This document shows positions 10,789 through 21,636 of a stretch of DNA of 21,636 nt, in pieces. The position numbers and the translations under genes are program-made. Source of the stretch: a virus; the IMG/VR virus record IMGVR_UViG_3300033571_021436, positions 1 to 21,636 of that record. One strand, given 5' to 3'. Position 1 is the first letter of the stretch. The number at the start of each line of letters is the position of its first letter. The notes under the pieces were generated by a model that searched no databases, was not told where the DNA came from, and saw nothing but the letters and a program-made list of their open reading frames with translations.

Positions 10789-11927
10789 TATCCATTAACC
10801 ATTTCATCTACATTGATACCACGAATAACTGCCTTCAATTCATCCATTGATGACAACCTCTTCGCCTCTTCATGTAGATTTTTCTTTTGTGCCTCTGCCA
10901 GTGCCAATATACCCTTTCTCTTTTCCTCATCTTTCCAAGCCTGAACTAAGTTTAGAATACTAGCATTCTCTTCTTGACGAAGTTTTATTCTTTGCGCGCG
11001 ATCATCGACAAGTGATTTATACAGTTTTTGCTGCCTTGTCCTGCACTGATTATACTCGGTCTGTAAATTACTAATAGCCTCGTTAAGCTGCATTTTAATA
11101 TTTCGCCCCTCACCGTCACTAGTGCTATTACGTAACATATCACGTAAATCCTCAACTTGCTGTAAGATTGTTGCCGCAGTAACTACTTCTGTACATAGTA
11201 CAATGAATTGATCTAACTCCTCCTGACTGAGGTCTGGCTTATCGAAAGTATACCTAATAAATGAATCCTCAAAAAGCTGTCTATCGTTATTGGTCTTATA
11301 TGTATTAATTTGATAACAAAAACTAAAAGTATTCAAATACCTTTGTAACATATCAACCATTTTCTGTTGTGATGCCTTGAGAGTGTCCGCTGACCAGCCG
11401 ATGTTAAGATACTTATTTATTCTAAATACAGTTTGATCCGTCCTTCTTGGTGGAAAATATGCGCCTGAAGTAGAATCGGTACCCCTTTCAGATGGGACAT
11501 AAGTCGTCATATCCAATGCATCTTTTTGGTATTCTGGGTCTTGCTTCTGTAGTTCTTGTATATAACTATTTACTTCTCGGCACTCAAGTGTTACATGAGT
11601 TAACTTATCATTAACGAAAATCGTTTTGGCAATATCTACATAATTTTGTTCTTTATAATGATTTTTTATGAACTCTTTTTGCTCTTCTGAAAGAGTAATT
11701 CTTTCCCTTTGTGTAACGCTCTTGTTTTTATATTGAATATTATTATCCAATAGAAACTGTTTTACTAGCCTACCCTCTTTGCTTCTGCTATCAATTTTTT
11801 CGTCATTATAGGCATAAGAAGTAATTTGTGTTAATGTAGCATCTGGATTTAATTTTAAGAAGTCACGAATCCTATCTTTCTGTTCGTCAAAAAGAATCAC
11901 ATCCGTGCTTTCTGGTGTATCACTCAT
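10788..11927 (-). CDS. Unrecognised helical protein, candidate small terminase subunit
   Basis: The 379-residue protein is mostly helical. Two similar helix-turn-helix-like units sit in the N-terminus (about 13-57 and 79-126): each opens 'DEQK/EEQK-x-x-I/F', carries a helical motif, and ends at a 'V-x-x-F/Y-I/L' segment. A middle portion (about 175-255) and a charged coiled coil (about 255-360, rich in Q, R, K, E) follow. DNA-binding N-terminus, oligomerising middle and position two genes before terL would fit a small terminase, which recognises packaging sites, but this protein is long for one and I see no family motif. A transcription-linked role next to the sigma-like gene is another option. 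The ATG has a strong Shine-Dalgarno (AAGGAGGT, 11931-11938), and the start overlaps the sigma gene end by four bases. Confidence 0.35.
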   Translation of the reverse strand: MSDTPESTDVILFDEQKDRIRDFLKLNPDATLTQITSYAYNDEKIDSRSKEGRLVKQFLLDNNIQYKNKSVTQRERITLSEEQKEFIKNHYKEQNYVDIAKTIFVNDKLTHVTLECREVNSYIQELQKQDPEYQKDALDMTTYVPSERGTDSTSGAYFPPRRTDQTVFRINKYLNIGWSADTLKASQQKMVDMLQRYLNTFSFCYQINTYKTNNDRQLFEDSFIRYTFDKPDLSQEELDQFIVLCTEVVTAATILQQVEDLRDMLRNSTSDGEGRNIKMQLNEAISNLQTEYNQCRTRQQKLYKSLVDDRAQRIKLRQEENASILNLVQAWKDEEKRKGILALAEAQKKNLHEEAKRLSSMDELKAVIRGINVDEMVNG

Positions 11928-12622
11928 ACTACCTCCTTAGCTAATATTCGGGCCTTCTGTAAAATTTTTGACTTGATTTTACTAATTTGTCTATATGCTG
12001 GTCGGCCATCCTTATAGCTTAACTTGTAACCCATTTTTTTTGCAATATCTGCTTCCTCAAGGTTCTGCAGAAACATGTAGTCATAAACCTTCCATTCTAT
12101 AACGGAAAGATTCTTTTTCATAATATCGTTAAAAGATGGGATTATATTCTCTATATCAACATCTATTTCTCTAGAATGAAGAACAGACTCTAGGGTAGTC
12201 TCTGGGTTTTGGGCATTCGGACTATTTATACTTACAGGAAACTTAATATCATAAGCTGACTTCTTAGTTTTTTCCCATTTTGCATATGTAGTACAGGAAT
12301 TATTCTGTGTTCCATATAAGGAGCATCCATACTCACCAGTATTGAATTTGCACTTTAAACATGGTCTAGAAAAATTTGAATAGTGATTACGAAGCATGTT
12401 TGTAATCTGGTGATTAATTACTTGATTTAGCCAAGGTCTTAATGGGCGGATATTATCCCATTTATCCCACTTTTTATATATATGTATACGTAATCTTTGT
12501 GATACGTCCTGAAAATCCATCCAAGAAATAGCGGTTAGGTGCCAGCGCGATTTACGCTTATTAATTTCTTCGTCTATAATATCAATAGACTGTTCAAATG
12601 TGGGTCTAGATTGAGTTGTCAC
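11924..12622 (-). CDS. Sigma-70-like RNA polymerase sigma factor with inserted four-Cys motif
   Basis: Of 232 residues, 33-82 look like sigma region 2 (WMDFQDVSQRLRIHIYKKWD, then RPWLNQVINHQITNMLRNHY). The end, 172-230, looks like region 4, with a helix-turn-helix (EEADIAKKMGY, then RQISKIKSKILQKARIL). Between them lies a likely zinc-binding insert with C88, C91, C100 and C110 (RPCLKCKF, GEYGCSLYG, NSCTTYAKWE). The protein would direct host RNA polymerase to phage promoters, most likely the GTGTAATTA-type late promoters in this window. It is read from an operon that itself carries that motif at 13210-13218, suggesting positive feedback. Start is GTG at 12620-12622 with AGGAG 11 bases upstream. 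Similarity to ECF and T4 gp55-type factors is by pattern only. Confidence 0.72.
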   Translation of the reverse strand: MTTQSRPTFEQSIDIIDEEINKRKSRWHLTAISWMDFQDVSQRLRIHIYKKWDKWDNIRPLRPWLNQVINHQITNMLRNHYSNFSRPCLKCKFNTGEYGCSLYGTQNNSCTTYAKWEKTKKSAYDIKFPVSINSPNAQNPETTLESVLHSREIDVDIENIIPSFNDIMKKNLSVIEWKVYDYMFLQNLEEADIAKKMGYKLSYKDGRPAYRQISKIKSKILQKARILAKEVV

Positions 12623-18496: not shown

Positions 18497-18629
18497 CATT
18501 TAATATTGTTTGGTTACAGTTTGTATTATATTTATAATAATTCTTCTCGCCCGGATTTCCAGACTGAAGTGTATTCCTACCTACACATACTATTAATGTT
18601 TTAATAAAAGGCAGGGGGTTATTATTAAT

Positions 18630-18652
18630 TTATTATTATTATTATTATTATT
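18630..18652. repeat. ATT trinucleotide repeat
   Basis: About seven and a half tandem ATT units, preceded by a shorter ATTATTAATTT stretch. It may act as an easily melted DNA segment or be a simple slippage tract. Confidence 0.85.
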
Positions 18653-18784
18653 GTGTTATGATATGTTATTACTGTTATGCGCTCGCAACCACATCGAGCG
18701 GCGCGGATTTCTGAATAATGTATGTTTTTTATTGGGGGAGAAGGAAGTTTCACCCCCCCGACCACTTCCCGGTAAAATGTCAAG

Positions 18785-18803
18785 CCATTTTTTCAAAAAA
18801 TGG
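18785..18803. repeat. Near-perfect palindrome CCATTTTTT/AAAAAATGG
   Basis: Nine-base arms separated by a single C, enclosed between a C7 run (18753-18759) and a G7 run (18802-18808) that can also pair. It overlaps a GTCAAGC-type motif (18779-18794) shared with the two later early modules. Confidence 0.7.
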
Positions 18804-18866
18804 GGGGGCTTACGGTGTAACACAACTGTCATACACCATATGGCTTTAAAAAATTAAAAATAATTC

Positions 18867-18895
18867 TTGCACCAATGGGCACTCTCAAGCATACT
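18867..18895 (+). promoter_or_regulatory. Early promoter 1, leaderless type
   Basis: TTGCAC (18867-18872), 17 bases, CATACT (18890-18895), then six bases (CTAATC) and the ATG at 18902. The preceding A-rich tract and -35 (AAAAATAATTCTTGCA, 18856-18871) matches 15 of 16 bases of the region before the gene at 20370. Confidence 0.65.
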
Positions 18896-18901
18896 CTAAT
18901 C

Positions 18902-19018
18902 ATGAAAGACACGCTACACCACATCGAAACAGGGGGCATCCTTGCCACCTTCCTCGCCTACGGCATCACGGCGCTCTCCGTCGTCGGCCTTTTGGTTCTT
19001 GCAATGGAGAACCTGTAA
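18902..19018 (+). CDS. 38-residue single-pass membrane peptide
   Basis: Reading from ATG at 18902 gives MKDTLHHIETGG and then one hydrophobic helix (ILATFLAYGITALSVVGLLV) ending AMENL. An in-frame ATG at 18875 would add nine residues, but it lies between the promoter boxes, so the later start is preferred. No family is recognised. Small membrane peptides made early in infection often alter host membrane proteins; that is only a general possibility. The -35 box of the next promoter lies within the last 20 bases of this gene. Confidence 0.55.
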   Translation: MKDTLHHIETGGILATFLAYGITALSVVGLLVLAMENL

Positions 19019-19027
19019 CCCTATACT
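18999..19027 (+). promoter_or_regulatory. Early promoter 2, leaderless type
   Basis: TTGCAA (18999-19004), 17 bases, TATACT (19022-19027), then eight bases (CTAATCAT) and the ATG at 19036. The stretch TACTCTAATCAT is shared with promoter 1. Confidence 0.68.
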
Positions 19028-19035
19028 CTAATCAT

Positions 19036-19122
19036 ATGAAGCTCGTATCACTCCTCATCATTGCCAACCTCTCCGTGTTTGGCGGTATCCTTTACTTCGT
19101 GGATCAAATCTGCAATCACTAA
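19036..19122 (+). CDS. 28-residue membrane micropeptide
   Basis: ATG at 19036 opens MKLVSLLIIANLSVFGGILY and ends FVDQICNH. It is nearly all one hydrophobic helix with a short polar tail. Its strong promoter, in exact register with the ATG, is the main evidence that it is expressed. No family is recognised, and a signal-peptide-like leader of no independent function is also possible. Confidence 0.48.
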   Translation: MKLVSLLIIANLSVFGGILYFVDQICNH

Positions 19123-19123
19123 A

Positions 19124-19183
19124 ATGTTTTTTCTTTTGTGTTGCTTTATCGTAGCAATCGTAATAAAATTCAAATCACAATAA
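19124..19183 (+). CDS. 19-residue hydrophobic micropeptide (tentative)
   Basis: ATG at 19124, one base after the previous stop, opens a short frame MFFLLCCFIVAIVIKFKSQ that looks like a membrane helix with a basic end. It has no promoter of its own; translation would depend on the gene before. The TTGCTT box of the next promoter lies inside it. It may be chance. Confidence 0.3.
   Translation: MFFLLCCFIVAIVIKFKSQ
19141..19169 (+). promoter_or_regulatory. Early promoter 3
   Basis: TTGCTT (19141-19146), 17 bases, TAAAAT (19164-19169). The next ATG (19195) is 25 bases on, so unlike the neighbouring promoters this one would give a short leader. Confidence 0.42.
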
Positions 19184-19194
19184 AGCTACATCAT

Positions 19195-19341
19195 ATGACC
19201 CTCTGCATCTTCAAGCTCTCGCAGCGTCTCTACAATCAGTCAGCCAAGCACTCGCGCCTTGGCAATACTCTTCGCATGAAGGGCTACTACTACATGAGCA
19301 ACGCCCTGTTAGAGGCAAAGACCTTCCTTCAGTCCATCTAA
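19195..19341 (+). CDS. Small basic hypothetical protein
   Basis: ATG at 19195 gives 48 residues, MTLCIFKLSQRLYNQSAKHS and onward, with a Tyr-rich segment GYYYMSNALLEAKTFLQSI. The frame is open to a possible start at 19138, but the later ATG is preceded by ATCAT, as are the neighbouring starts, and lies after the promoter. Helical and basic; no family recognised. Confidence 0.55.
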   Translation: MTLCIFKLSQRLYNQSAKHSRLGNTLRMKGYYYMSNALLEAKTFLQSI

Positions 19342-19366
19342 TACAATAACACTACACTATAAGACA

Positions 19367-19720
19367 ATGGCAACACGATCCAACCTACACTTCAAAGACG
19401 GCAACTATCTCGGCGCGAACATCTATGTTCACTATGACGGCTATCCAGAGAATCGCGTACCCGAACTCTATCGCTTCTTCAATGCGGTAAAGGAGCAATG
19501 CAATGACACTCGCTTTAATGACTCGTCTTACCTTGCCGCAAAGTTCATTGTGTGGTACTCCATGCAACAGGTAAGCGATGCAGAGTGTTCGCCCCTAGAC
19601 TTCCTAGGCATTGGCCCTGCGGTACAGGACAGCGGCGACATAGAGTATCGCTACACCATTGACTGCAGCCATCGTGACCCTAACGGCTTTCCCCTTGTCT
19701 CATACGAGAAGGTAATGTAA
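19367..19720 (+). CDS. Conserved-type small phage protein with a 'DGYPE' motif
   Basis: The 117-residue protein opens MATRSNLHFKDGNYLGANIY followed by VHYDGYPENRV. The pattern 'MATRS..x-DG-x-Y..x-H-x-DGYP' occurs in a group of small phage proteins of unknown function known to me from memory. Aromatic and acidic residues continue to the end with no membrane helix. It is the largest gene of the first early unit. No clear -35/-10 pair lies before it, so it is probably read from a promoter upstream. Confidence 0.65.
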   Translation: MATRSNLHFKDGNYLGANIYVHYDGYPENRVPELYRFFNAVKEQCNDTRFNDSSYLAAKFIVWYSMQQVSDAECSPLDFLGIGPAVQDSGDIEYRYTIDCSHRDPNGFPLVSYEKVM

Positions 19721-19732
19721 TACAATATAGTA

Positions 19733-19885
19733 ATGACAATAGTACAACAACTCAAATGCAAACAGGACTTTGCCGAATGGTGCAAGCGTTGCAAGATACC
19801 CGTGCAGGATAACGCGGTATATCGTAAGAGAGTGTATGACATCTATGAGAGATGCTGGAAGCGTAGCTATGGTATAGATAAGTAG
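19733..19885 (+). CDS. 50-residue Cys-containing hypothetical protein
   Basis: ATG at 19733 opens MTIVQQLKCKQDFAEWCKRC and continues to VYDIYERCWKRSYGIDK. Four cysteines (C9, C17, C20, C41) and many basic and aromatic residues suggest a small zinc-binding or nucleic-acid-binding protein, without a known family. It lies 12 bases after the previous stop. The first hairpin element starts 6 bases after its TAG. Confidence 0.5.
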   Translation: MTIVQQLKCKQDFAEWCKRCKIPVQDNAVYRKRVYDIYERCWKRSYGIDK

Positions 19886-19890
19886 CTGAA

Positions 19891-19937
19891 TATCAACGAC
19901 TTACGCAGCCGGGCCTAGCCCGGTCTTGCGCTGTAAG
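19891..19937 (+). repeat. Early-unit 3' hairpin element, copy 1
   Basis: The core ACTTACGCAGCCGGG (19899-19913) is identical to copy 2. CCGGGC-CTA-GCCCGG makes a 6-bp stem, and outer arms CTTAC (19900-19904) and GTAAG (19933-19937) can pair. It lies right after the last gene of the first early unit. No T run follows, so it may be a terminator of unusual type or an RNA-processing site. Confidence 0.65.
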
Positions 19938-19968
19938 ACAACCATTATACCATGCAGATACCCAAACA

Positions 19969-19981
19969 GTCAAGCGTTTTC
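19969..19981 (+). promoter_or_regulatory. Shared upstream motif, copy 1
   Basis: GTCAAGCGTTTTC begins exactly 82 bases before the ATG at 20051. The matching motif before the gene at 20891 is also 82 bases from its ATG. A/T-rich sequence resembling an UP element separates it from the -35 box. Confidence 0.5.
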
Positions 19982-20015
19982 GTAAAATAAAAATACAAAA
20001 AAATAAAAGTTTTTG

Positions 20016-20044
20016 TTGCGCTCCGAGCGATTCTGCCCTATCTT
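20016..20044 (+). promoter_or_regulatory. Early promoter 4, leaderless type
   Basis: TTGCGC (20016-20021), 17 bases, TATCTT (20039-20044), then AAAACC and the ATG at 20051. An 11-base palindrome CGCTC-C-GAGCG (20019-20029) overlaps the -35 box and the spacer. Confidence 0.62.
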
Positions 20045-20050
20045 AAAACC

Positions 20051-20326
20051 ATGAAGAACGAACTGAACTACAACGAGAAAGTGAACAATGTGCAGAACTT
20101 CCTGAACTGCGACCTGCAGTTTGAGAACCTGAATGAGTTCGACCGCTACTGCTACAAGAACCTTCCCGAGTACTACTCGGTTTCGGTTTCGGATTTGGGT
20201 GAAGAGTTCGTGAAGGCTAACGAATGCGGATACAACGAGGAACCCTACGAGAACCCCTTCCAGAAAGGATCGGTTCGCTACTTTGTAGCCGAAGGGTGCT
20301 ACGCTCAAGGAGCTTCGGATTGCTAA
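20051..20326 (+). CDS. Acidic hypothetical early protein
   Basis: The 91-residue protein starts MKNELNYNEKVNNVQNFLNC and is rich in Tyr, Asn and Glu, with several cysteines and a tail GCYAQGASDC. It is preceded by a clear promoter whose -10 box ends six bases before the ATG. A long open frame exists on the other strand over the same bases, but it has no promoter. Family unknown. Confidence 0.62.
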   Translation: MKNELNYNEKVNNVQNFLNCDLQFENLNEFDRYCYKNLPEYYSVSVSDLGEEFVKANECGYNEEPYENPFQKGSVRYFVAEGCYAQGASDC

Positions 20327-20335
20327 AAATAATCC

Positions 20336-20363
20336 TTGCAAAAACCATAGAATCTGACAGAAT
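20336..20363 (+). promoter_or_regulatory. Early promoter 5, leaderless type
   Basis: TTGCAA (20336-20341), 16 bases, CAGAAT (20358-20363), then CAAATC and the ATG at 20370. The -10 box is weaker than in the others. A GGATT/AATCC hairpin (20317-20335) straddles the preceding stop codon. Confidence 0.5.
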
Positions 20364-20369
20364 CAAATC

Positions 20370-20561
20370 ATGAAGAATAAAAAACCACTGAACGAAGCAA
20401 CGATCAAGATGCTCGCCAATAGCGAGAGGATAGAAAGAGAGATCCAAGCAGTTTGCGACATGATCCGCAAAGAAAGAGAGGCAAAGGGATTGCCCGCACC
20501 TGTAATGACTGGAAGAAACAGGCTTTGCGTAGAAGCAAAAGAAGACCTTTGGAATTGCTAA
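20370..20561 (+). CDS. Small charged helical early protein
   Basis: The 63-residue protein starts MKNKKPLNEATIKMLANSER and continues as a charged helix (IEREIQAVCDMIRKEREAKG), then MTGRNRLCVEAKEDLWNC. It could be a small binding or dimerising protein. Its last codon and stop (TGC TAA) with the trailing AAAAAT repeat the end of the preceding gene. No family recognised. Confidence 0.58.
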   Translation: MKNKKPLNEATIKMLANSERIEREIQAVCDMIRKEREAKGLPAPVMTGRNRLCVEAKEDLWNC

Positions 20562-20565
20562 AAAT

Positions 20566-20730
20566 ATGAATGATGAACAATACAATGCCTTGTATGACAA
20601 GGCCCGTCTGTATGCGGAAACACACTTCGCCACAGAATGCTTCTCTCTCGTTGAGTCTTGCGAGGTAGATTCAAGGGTTGACTTTGTTTTTCAAGGTAAG
20701 ACAGGAAAGATTTTCGAGATAAGTCTCTAA
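20566..20730 (+). CDS. 54-residue hypothetical early protein
   Basis: ATG at 20566 opens MNDEQYNALYDKARLYAETH and continues through CFSLVESCEVDSRVDF to VFQGKTGKIFEISL. It is acidic, with a helical first half and beta-prone end. It lies four bases after the previous stop, and the second hairpin element begins right after its TAA. No family recognised. Confidence 0.52.
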   Translation: MNDEQYNALYDKARLYAETHFATECFSLVESCEVDSRVDFVFQGKTGKIFEISL

Positions 20731-20765
20731 TACTCAACCACTTACGCAGCCGGGTCCCGCCCGGT
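20731..20765 (+). repeat. Early-unit 3' hairpin element, copy 2
   Basis: The core ACTTACGCAGCCGGG (20740-20754) is identical to copy 1; CCGGG-TCCCG-CCCGG forms a 5-bp stem. It begins at the base after the TAA of the second early unit. Downstream, TGTCTTACA is the reverse complement of the TGTAAGACA found after copy 1. Confidence 0.65.
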
Positions 20766-20808
20766 GTATGGTGTCTTACAATCTATCATATCAGATAGAG
20801 TGATTCTT

Positions 20809-20821
20809 GTCAAGCATTTTC
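20809..20821 (+). promoter_or_regulatory. Shared upstream motif, copy 2
   Basis: GTCAAGCATTTTC starts exactly 82 bases before the ATG at 20891, matching copy 1 in sequence (one difference) and distance. A third, related form (GTCAAGCCATTTTTTC, 18779-18794) precedes the first early unit. Confidence 0.5.
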
Positions 20822-20856
20822 ACACAAAAAAAGTCTACCAAGAGTAAAAAAAGTTA

Positions 20857-20884
20857 TTGCAAAGATGCCATGATTGTATATACT
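20857..20884 (+). promoter_or_regulatory. Early promoter 6, leaderless type
   Basis: TTGCAA (20857-20862), 16 bases, TATACT (20879-20884), then GAAACC and the ATG at 20891. Confidence 0.65.
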
Positions 20885-20890
20885 GAAACC

Positions 20891-21142
20891 ATGAAAACGA
20901 AACTGACACTAAATGGAAGGGAGATTAATTCCCAGTCGATCAACATTGAAGGCGTAAATCGTGGCGACTACCCAGACTTTGCTGATGCATTCATCGCGCA
21001 AGCTGTTTGGATGAACGATGGAACGGCCCTTAATGACGAGGAACTTAATCAACTAACAAATGAGAATGGTGAACTCGTGAACGAATTGGCAATGAGTAAA
21101 TACTGGCTAATAAGAGTTCTTGACACATATATCACCATCTGA
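20891..21142 (+). CDS. Conserved-type early protein with 'DYPDFADAF' motif
   Basis: From ATG at 20891 the product has 83 residues. The frame extends upstream to a TTG at 20807, but that would place the start before the promoter, so it is rejected. The stretch GVNRGDYPDFADAFIAQAVW, then DGTALNDEELNQLTNENGEL, recalls a small protein family in cyanophages and other aquatic phages ('DYPDF.DA...L.D.EL..L'), recognised from memory and of unknown function. The last 25 residues may form a short helix. The -35 box of the next promoter lies within its last codons. Confidence 0.65.
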   Translation: MKTKLTLNGREINSQSINIEGVNRGDYPDFADAFIAQAVWMNDGTALNDEELNQLTNENGELVNELAMSKYWLIRVLDTYITI

Positions 21143-21148
21143 TAGACT
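21120..21148 (+). promoter_or_regulatory. Sigma-70 promoter 7, with a normal leader
   Basis: TTGACA (21120-21125), 17 bases, TAGACT (21143-21148), then a 29-base A-rich stretch to the ATG at 21178. This is the only canonical -35 box in the early block and the clearest case that is not leaderless. Confidence 0.65.
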
Positions 21149-21177
21149 ATAAATAGAAAGATAAGAAAAACAAAAAT

Positions 21178-21501
21178 ATGAGATCATACAAATATCCCCT
21201 CCGTTCCTTCAAGGTAGTCTGTGGTGGCGAAACGCCAGAAGCCAGACATGGCAGAATCCAGTCCGACATTATGGACAGGGAAACCGCTCGGATGAATGCC
21301 GAACGCTTCGCTGACCCGATCATTCTGTCTGGAAGCGCAGAGGAAAAGGTTAAGCAACTGCTCTTTGCGGTTGACACTTACGAACAGGATCTTGCTATGT
21401 ATCGCAAGCTTGAGAGGCAAGCCAAGCAAGAGAAGATTGTCTTACAGGCTAGGATTGCCGAGCTTGAAGAGAAAATCCTTAAAATGGAGGCCAAAAACTA
21501 A
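21178..21501 (+). CDS. Coiled-coil hypothetical early protein
   Basis: The 107-residue protein starts MRSYKYPLRSFKVVCGGETP, has a central RETARMNAERFADP helix, and ends in a long charged coiled coil (about 60-107, YRKLERQAKQEKIVLQARIA then ELEEKILKMEAKN). It probably forms an oligomer. Overlapping frames on both strands are long but not supported by any promoter. Family unknown. Confidence 0.62.
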   Translation: MRSYKYPLRSFKVVCGGETPEARHGRIQSDIMDRETARMNAERFADPIILSGSAEEKVKQLLFAVDTYEQDLAMYRKLERQAKQEKIVLQARIAELEEKILKMEAKN

Positions 21502-21511
21502 TCCATTTAAT

Positions 21512-21613
21512 ATGAGCATCCAAAGAATCTCTCTCCACTTAAATTGCATGGTTCATAGGCCCAAAAACTGGCGATTTTATATGTTAGGAATCTTGAGAGA
21601 GTTCAGAGTGTAA
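21512..21613 (+). CDS. 33-residue basic micropeptide (tentative)
   Basis: ATG at 21512, ten bases after the previous stop, gives MSIQRISLHLNCMVHRPKNW then RFYMLGILREFRV, a basic and aromatic peptide. It fits the packing of this block and ends just before the third hairpin element. The frame is open much further upstream through the previous gene, which weakens the case for this particular start. Confidence 0.38.
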   Translation: MSIQRISLHLNCMVHRPKNWRFYMLGILREFRV

Positions 21614-21622
21614 ATCGCTAAG

Positions 21623-21636
21623 TATCAACGACTTAC
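21623..21636 (+). repeat. Early-unit 3' hairpin element, copy 3 (cut by window edge)
   Basis: TATCAACGACTTAC matches the first 14 bases of copy 1 exactly and begins nine bases after the stop at 21613. The rest lies outside the window. Confidence 0.5.

Follow-up and report, generated by a model that had tools for sequence, protein, structure and literature searches.

To our knowledge, the exchangeability of the variable, often anti-host, early genes of phages is an open question, for which the PeSL (promoter early stem-loop) of T4 is the main described example. A PeSL combines a stem-loop terminator with a strong early promoter. These elements of T4-type phages were reported by Arbiol 2010 and Comeau 2014, as cited in PMC4503421. 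In the 21,636-bp stretch of viral DNA analysed here, an IMG/VR record (hereafter, the window), we found a repeated element that appears closest to a PeSL in arrangement and is built differently; the two are likened by arrangement, not by sequence. Going by the PeSL work as cited there, the likeness would consist of a repeated composite border of the early region, in which the next unit's early promoter comes after a stop signal of the preceding unit (here a putative one), and of the modular shuffling of small early genes bounded by that border, seen here as one exact junction and as order changes in a variable block. Unlike a PeSL, the present element has neither a T run nor conserved stem pairing, i.e., no canonical stem-loop terminator. 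Additionally, it has a second dyad over the stop codon and fused palindromes at convergent gene ends, and its borders include predicted leaderless starts and a facing antisense promoter.

In mycobacteriophage L5 and its cluster A relatives, stoperators are monomer sites of 13 bp with an asymmetric sequence (PMC9283540). They resemble the present element as many short intergenic sites whose orientation is tied to transcription blocks, and the phage protein bound to them halts elongation, an action that we only propose here (PMC9283540). The present element differs in its length of about 53 bp, its two dyads and its lack of the 13-bp asymmetric consensus to which a phage repressor binds in L5; the TGTCAAG boxes found near it read as reverse -35 hexamers.

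The element in the window and in related phages

The left 18.5 kb of the window contains structural and packaging genes, mostly on the minus strand, including those for terminase, portal, a phage sigma factor and PhoH, with Hsp20 on the plus strand. Rightward of 18.9 kb, small plus-strand early genes are arranged in short units. No named phage sharing DNA with the window was found, and the best identity of its terminase to those of named phages is only about 22-24%. The phage group carries rIIA and rIIB, and its terminase is only 22-24% identical to those of other groups. The product of window positions 11924-12622, a phage protein with sigma-70 region 2 that is 80-91% identical in the 8 of 8 relatives covering that stretch, is a candidate late sigma factor.

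Within positions 18501-21636, ACTTACGCAGCCGGG (at 19899 and 20740) is the sole non-microsatellite exact 15-mer that is repeated; 198 of 200 dinucleotide shuffles of the same region had none. Using an nhmmer profile built from the whole element family, we located three copies in the window, the third cut by its edge (Table 1). As the sequence-only reading had proposed, each copy closes an early unit, according to both the profile match and the position after the last gene of the unit. That reading had also placed the start of the element 0-9 bases past the stop codon, which has to be corrected, as all three stop codons lie inside the left dyad. The degenerate relic that it suggested at 18760-18773 gave no match to the profile at E<0.1.

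Table 1. Positions of the element, its parts and the neighbouring features in the window and in related contigs.
Feature	Contig	Position	Strand	Basis or remark
Element copy 1, whole conserved unit	Window	19872-19924	+	nhmmer E=7e-13, model positions 3-55
Copy 1 left dyad, TAAGTAGCTGA-ATA-TCAACGACTTA	Window	19879-19903	.	Sequence, column conservation, stop positions
Stop codon inside copy 1 left dyad	Window	19883-19885		Ends gene 19733-19885
Copy 1 GC core, GCCGGGC-CTA-GCCCGGT	Window	19908-19924	.	Sequence
Operator-like TGTAAGACA (TGTnnnACA family dyad)	Window	19932-19940	.	Sequence
Antisense promoter facing copy 1, TTGACT-18-TATAAT	Window	19944-19973	-	
Probable forward promoter of unit 2, TTGCGC-17-TATCTT	Window	20016-20044	+	Read from sequence, inferred
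Element copy 2, whole conserved unit	Window	20715-20765	+	nhmmer E=3e-11
Copy 2 left dyad	Window	20720-20744	.	Holds stop codon 20728-20730 of gene 20566-20730
Copy 2 GC core, GCCGGGT-CCC-GCCCGGT	Window	20749-20765	.	Sequence
Operator-like TGTCTTACA	Window	20772-20780	.	Sequence
Antisense promoter facing copy 2, TTGACA-17-TATGAT	Window	20785-20813	-	
Probable forward promoter of unit 3, TTGCAA-16-TATACT	Window	20857-20884	+	Predicted leaderless ATG at 20891
Element copy 3, cut by window edge	Window	21609-21636	+	nhmmer E=3.5e-4
Copy 3 dyad	Window	21611-21635		Holds stop codon 21611-21613 of gene 21514-21613
GC-rich motif, examples	G2	17805, 21967, 23277		
GC-rich motif, example	G6	18991		
TTTGTGGTGAGC-loop hairpin	G1	18869		
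TTTGTGGTGAGC-loop hairpin	G2	34530-34580		
TTTGTGGTGAGC-loop hairpin	G4	7458		
TTTGTGGTGAGC-loop hairpin	G5	136434		
TTTGTGGTGAGC-loop hairpin	G6	8156		

Ten related IMG/VR phage contigs, 14 to 154 kb long, contain about 80 distinct copies of the element. In the 8 of 8 relatives whose sequence stretch covers the terminase gene, the terminase is 86-96% identical to that of the window, and the order of the genes neighbouring it is common to the window and these eight relatives. The first two contigs were recognised by the downstream hairpin half, and the other eight with wider patterns; a scan of IMG/VR with a 14-mer gave 109 matches, nearly all by chance, with the downstream half in only 2. A looser pattern yielded 99 occurrences, of which 85 were distinct once duplicates were removed, some of these being two readings of one double palindrome, and the profile adds weaker copies. 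Two contigs, of 81.7 and 52.4 kb, were scanned over their full length, and their copies are confined to 12.5-29 kb and 14.9-34.6 kb, an early region spanning 17-20 kb; the early end of the larger contigs likewise carries nearly all pattern matches. The sequence-only reading, which turned on the presence of the element in the rest of the early block, agrees with this recurrence among the relatives.

A strict pattern had no match in 84,980 bacterial and archaeal species genomes, and the element was found neither in named phages nor in the stretches examined of more distant relatives (PhoH 38-46% identical). A host origin was also considered; a loose pattern matched two isolated sites in high-GC actinobacteria among the 84,980 species genomes, which we judged to be chance. 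No Rfam family matched positions 18500-21636 at E<=1, and the relatives gave tRNAs only. A Bordetella plasmid (NC_018830.1) has, in the gap between two of its genes (L252 1501-1550), a dyad nearly identical to that of the element, GTAAGTCGTTGAAAATCAACGACTTAC, with a GC hairpin after it (E=0.02), possibly a hint of a wider class of stop-rich palindromes.

Anatomy and conservation of the two dyads

Based on column conservation, and numbering positions from the C of CTTAC, the conserved unit extends over about 53 bp (-28 to +24) and has two parts, the dyad TAAGTnnYTGA-N3-TCARnnACTTA (-21 to +3) and the GC core GCCSGGC-CCC-GCCSGGC (+8 to +24). Within the small-gene block, a same-direction gene upstream has its stop at -30 to -10, inside or just before the dyad. 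For elements following a same-direction gene, the three frames are used about equally by the stop codons (13, 12 and 9 cases, with positions transcribed by hand). At several convergent gene ends, two left dyads and one common core form a double palindrome, e.g., at G2 34571/34606. The orientation of the elements is constant inside a block and reversed between blocks; they run along the genes in the small-gene block and against them in the rIIA/rIIB/tRNA block, which a simple directional terminator does not fit. Absent from the sequence-only reading were the dyad over the stop codon, the fusion of palindromes where genes converge, the dependence of orientation on the block, and the antisense promoters facing the element (see below). 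Beside a glycosylase-like gene, a hairpin with a conserved TTTGTGGTGAGC loop stands in place of the left dyad (Table 1), and similar TGTGGTGAG loops are found after rIIA.

One way to read the GC core is as a U-less hairpin that acts at the RNA level, either as an intrinsic terminator devoid of a T run or as a stabiliser of the mRNA 3' end, with a 7-bp GC stem (GCCGGGC-CCC-GCCCGGC) sometimes lengthened by ACTTAC/GTAAGT. The location directly after stop codons agrees with such a hairpin, as do the folding energy of the perfect core stem (-13.7 kcal/mol) and the fold z values of the window copies (-2.1 and -2.8), which are better than those of most shuffles. Nevertheless, the middle pair of the core is G-C in 32, C.C in 27, G.G in 22 and C-G in 1 of 82 copies; i.e., it is mismatched in 60% of them and paired in 40%, versus 57% expected by shuffling. 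The two mismatched states fold at -7.5 or -9.4 kcal/mol, at a cost of 4 to 6 kcal/mol. Neither the left dyad nor the GC core showed covariation. A conserved stem with a varying loop, as previously described, holds for both window copies and fails across the family, and the RNA hairpin is not supported as the conserved feature.

The earlier statement that the element lacks a T run is valid for the window copies and for most of the family: the T content near the stem reaches at most 5 T per 8-base window, in 8 of 85 copies, and is lower in the others. Textbook hairpin-plus-T terminators are present in the structural region of one relative; these are presumably what the polymerase uses, the early element being a different device. 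With bidirectional intrinsic terminators the element has in common a GC-rich palindromic stop at convergent gene ends, and it differs from them in lacking T runs and in not maintaining the stem. Considering both sides, we regard a function at the RNA level as unlikely.

In both dyads, the rule is one deviating half-site at most. The core state in which both half-sites deviate (C/G) was found in 1 of 82 copies (Fisher p=2e-4), and both half-sites of the left dyad were altered at -14/-4 (C/G) in 3 of 84 (p=1e-5), these p-values being optimistic because the copies are related and independence is overstated. This conservation pattern suits symmetric recognition of duplex DNA by a protein better than it suits an RNA stem. 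The pattern search demanded C or G at the core centres, and a profile-based recount gave 1 T in 79 copies. The restriction of the core centres to C or G was considered as a recognition specificity, and it is probably better explained by a genome-wide avoidance of CCWGG. CCWGG is nearly missing from the window (0 versus about 18 expected) and from all relatives (e.g., 9 versus 92 in G1 and 0 versus 39 in G4), unlike CCSGG, which is not depleted in either; this scarcity of CCWGG but not CCSGG points to a host restriction system of CCWGG specificity.

Recognition by a protein could also mean a site for replication, segregation or silencing (iteron-, parS- or operator-like) that lies between units by chance. 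Such a site would agree with two dyads whose centres are spaced by 10-bp multiples, with conservation at the sequence level, with an orientation fixed per block and flipping between blocks, and with the similar intergenic dyad and hairpin of the Bordetella plasmid (E=0.02). It would not lead one to expect the stop-codon overlap or the placement at unit ends and convergent ends, and the copies extend over 17-20 kb instead of being clustered, so we hold this explanation to be quite improbable.

Operators and promoters beside the element

Rightward of the core, the order is a TGTnnnACA dyad, an antisense promoter in one class of copies, and then, as read off the letters, a forward promoter and a leaderless ATG. 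The composite border of hairpin, operator and promoter that had been described from the window recurs repeatedly among the family copies. TGTnnnACA dyads are present to the right of the core in 36 of 85 copies, versus 0.95 in shuffles. In one class of copies, an antisense promoter, GCTTGAC-17/18-TATACT, faces the element, with a mean -10 match of 4.26/6 versus 2.31 in shuffles (sd 0.21). The ATG of unit 2, at 20051, would be leaderless, lying about 6 bases past the probable promoter.

Strong antisense sigma-70 promoters, two in the window and 19 in class-A copies of the relatives, point towards the element and towards the 3' end of the unit upstream of it, and operator-like dyads often overlap the spacer or the start of these promoters. 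Additionally, a GC-rich motif, GCATAAACACTGGCTCTA...GGCTGYRGATGAATA, is found to the right of about 18 copies, between the element and the next gene, and is often doubled (examples in Table 1); TRF called no tandem array for these right-flank repeats in the one stretch tried.

Cassette exchange at the border and proposed function

We compared the cassettes lying between elements across eight contigs. The downstream early cassettes keep their order, and the upstream ones are shuffled: the pair c48-c49 comes after the first unit in the window and after the c6 cassette in G8, and c6 is located before c9 in G5 and G7 and after c9 in G2 and G8. In the variable part, a region chosen afterwards, adjacency was kept in 7 of 11 cases within cassettes versus 7 of 28 across elements (p=0.046). 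Over the whole early region, the difference was not significant (0.82 within cassettes versus 0.76 across elements, p=0.14).

G5 lacks exactly one cassette that G7 has, and the junction falls within ACTTACAGNGCCCGGCCCCGCC, a 22-bp part of the element. On its left, the G5 element is flanked as G7 copy 3 is (98%, 800 bp), and on its right as G7 copy 4 is (94%, 291 bp). The cassette skipped in G5 measures 426 bp and codes for a 91-aa protein, whose homologue in G2 has other neighbours. The gain or loss of at least one gene has its join exactly inside the element; the sequence-only reading had suggested looking for gene swaps bounded by the element, and what was found is this gain or loss, with the crossover mapped inside the element. 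Flank reassortment, i.e., copies that match on the left only or on the right only, is common. The c9 of the window is 80% identical to that of the distant G5 and G7, 69% identical to that of the nearer G2 and missing from the nearest G1 and G6, a pattern opposite to the relatedness of the terminases, by which G2, G1 and G6 are nearer to the window than G5 and G7. At G2 26087/26119 (L190 6087-6119), a double palindrome is made up of the left dyads that elsewhere flank c26 (G1 21337-21787), and c26 is absent from G2, as if two elements of opposite orientation had been joined at their GC core and the gene lost.

A number of breakpoints and replaced genes are found within units, away from the elements. 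In the window and G6, c37 replaces c34 ahead of the small gene c5, a swap within a unit, so the element is not the sole exchange point. The earlier proposal of exchange borders is accordingly borne out by the exact indel junction and the varying cassette order, and limited by the exchanges inside units.

Integron attC sites conserve structure, not sequence. The present element resembles them in marking the 3' end of a small gene cassette with a recombinogenic site, and a phage cassette system using it for site-specific recombination would be in keeping with the exact cassette indel and the shuffled order of cassettes that end in the element. Nevertheless, its conservation is the reverse, of sequence and not of structure, its cassettes have their own promoters, and several gene swaps lie outside the elements. 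Searches of six contigs of up to 154 kb yielded neither a tyrosine nor a serine recombinase; the tyrosine integrase family PF00589 matched 0 of 6 contigs, the control giving a signal in 14 of 14. We consider a site of this kind very unlikely. A RecA-type recombinase was also not found in the six contigs, and with neither type of enzyme found there, homologous exchange would proceed by another route.

Frequent flank reassortment would equally be produced by a passive linker, kept alike by recombination between copies only and with no role in transcription. The half-site rules, the stop-codon overlap and the double palindromes argue for selection on the sequence itself, and the copies are alike even in phages with divergent flanks; a mere linker is hardly credible.

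Considering the recurrence, position, symmetry and conservation pattern of the element, together with the exact indel inside it, we infer with a probability of about 0.55 that this phage-specific unit-end element acts as a transcription stop or insulator in both directions and, in addition, as a border for homologous exchange. Placed after the stop codon of an early unit and ahead of the operator and promoter of the following unit, it would keep upstream read-through apart from the antisense promoter directed at the element; where genes converge, both transcripts would be served by the fused double palindrome. It would act mainly as duplex DNA, with one putative dyad-recognising protein on the stop-codon dyad and another on the GC core. 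Since the same sequence ends many units in the same orientation and in any frame, recombination between copies could shift whole cassettes, and homologous recombination would in this manner delete, insert or move complete promoter-gene-stop cassettes. More tentatively, and with less than even odds, the element might be a DNA roadblock bound by a phage-encoded protein, with no RNA hairpin, that stops transcription arriving from either side, is placed to end translation in all three frames and forms the standard border for cassette exchange.

The element adds a second, apparently unrelated, border with a mapped internal junction, in a group of large phages for which no named member was found, and this border apparently acts via its DNA sequence and not via an RNA stem. 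If the proposed termination is true, the element would provide a stop in both directions that is compact and needs no U tract, and its copies, marking the ends of early units, would help in locating host-takeover genes.
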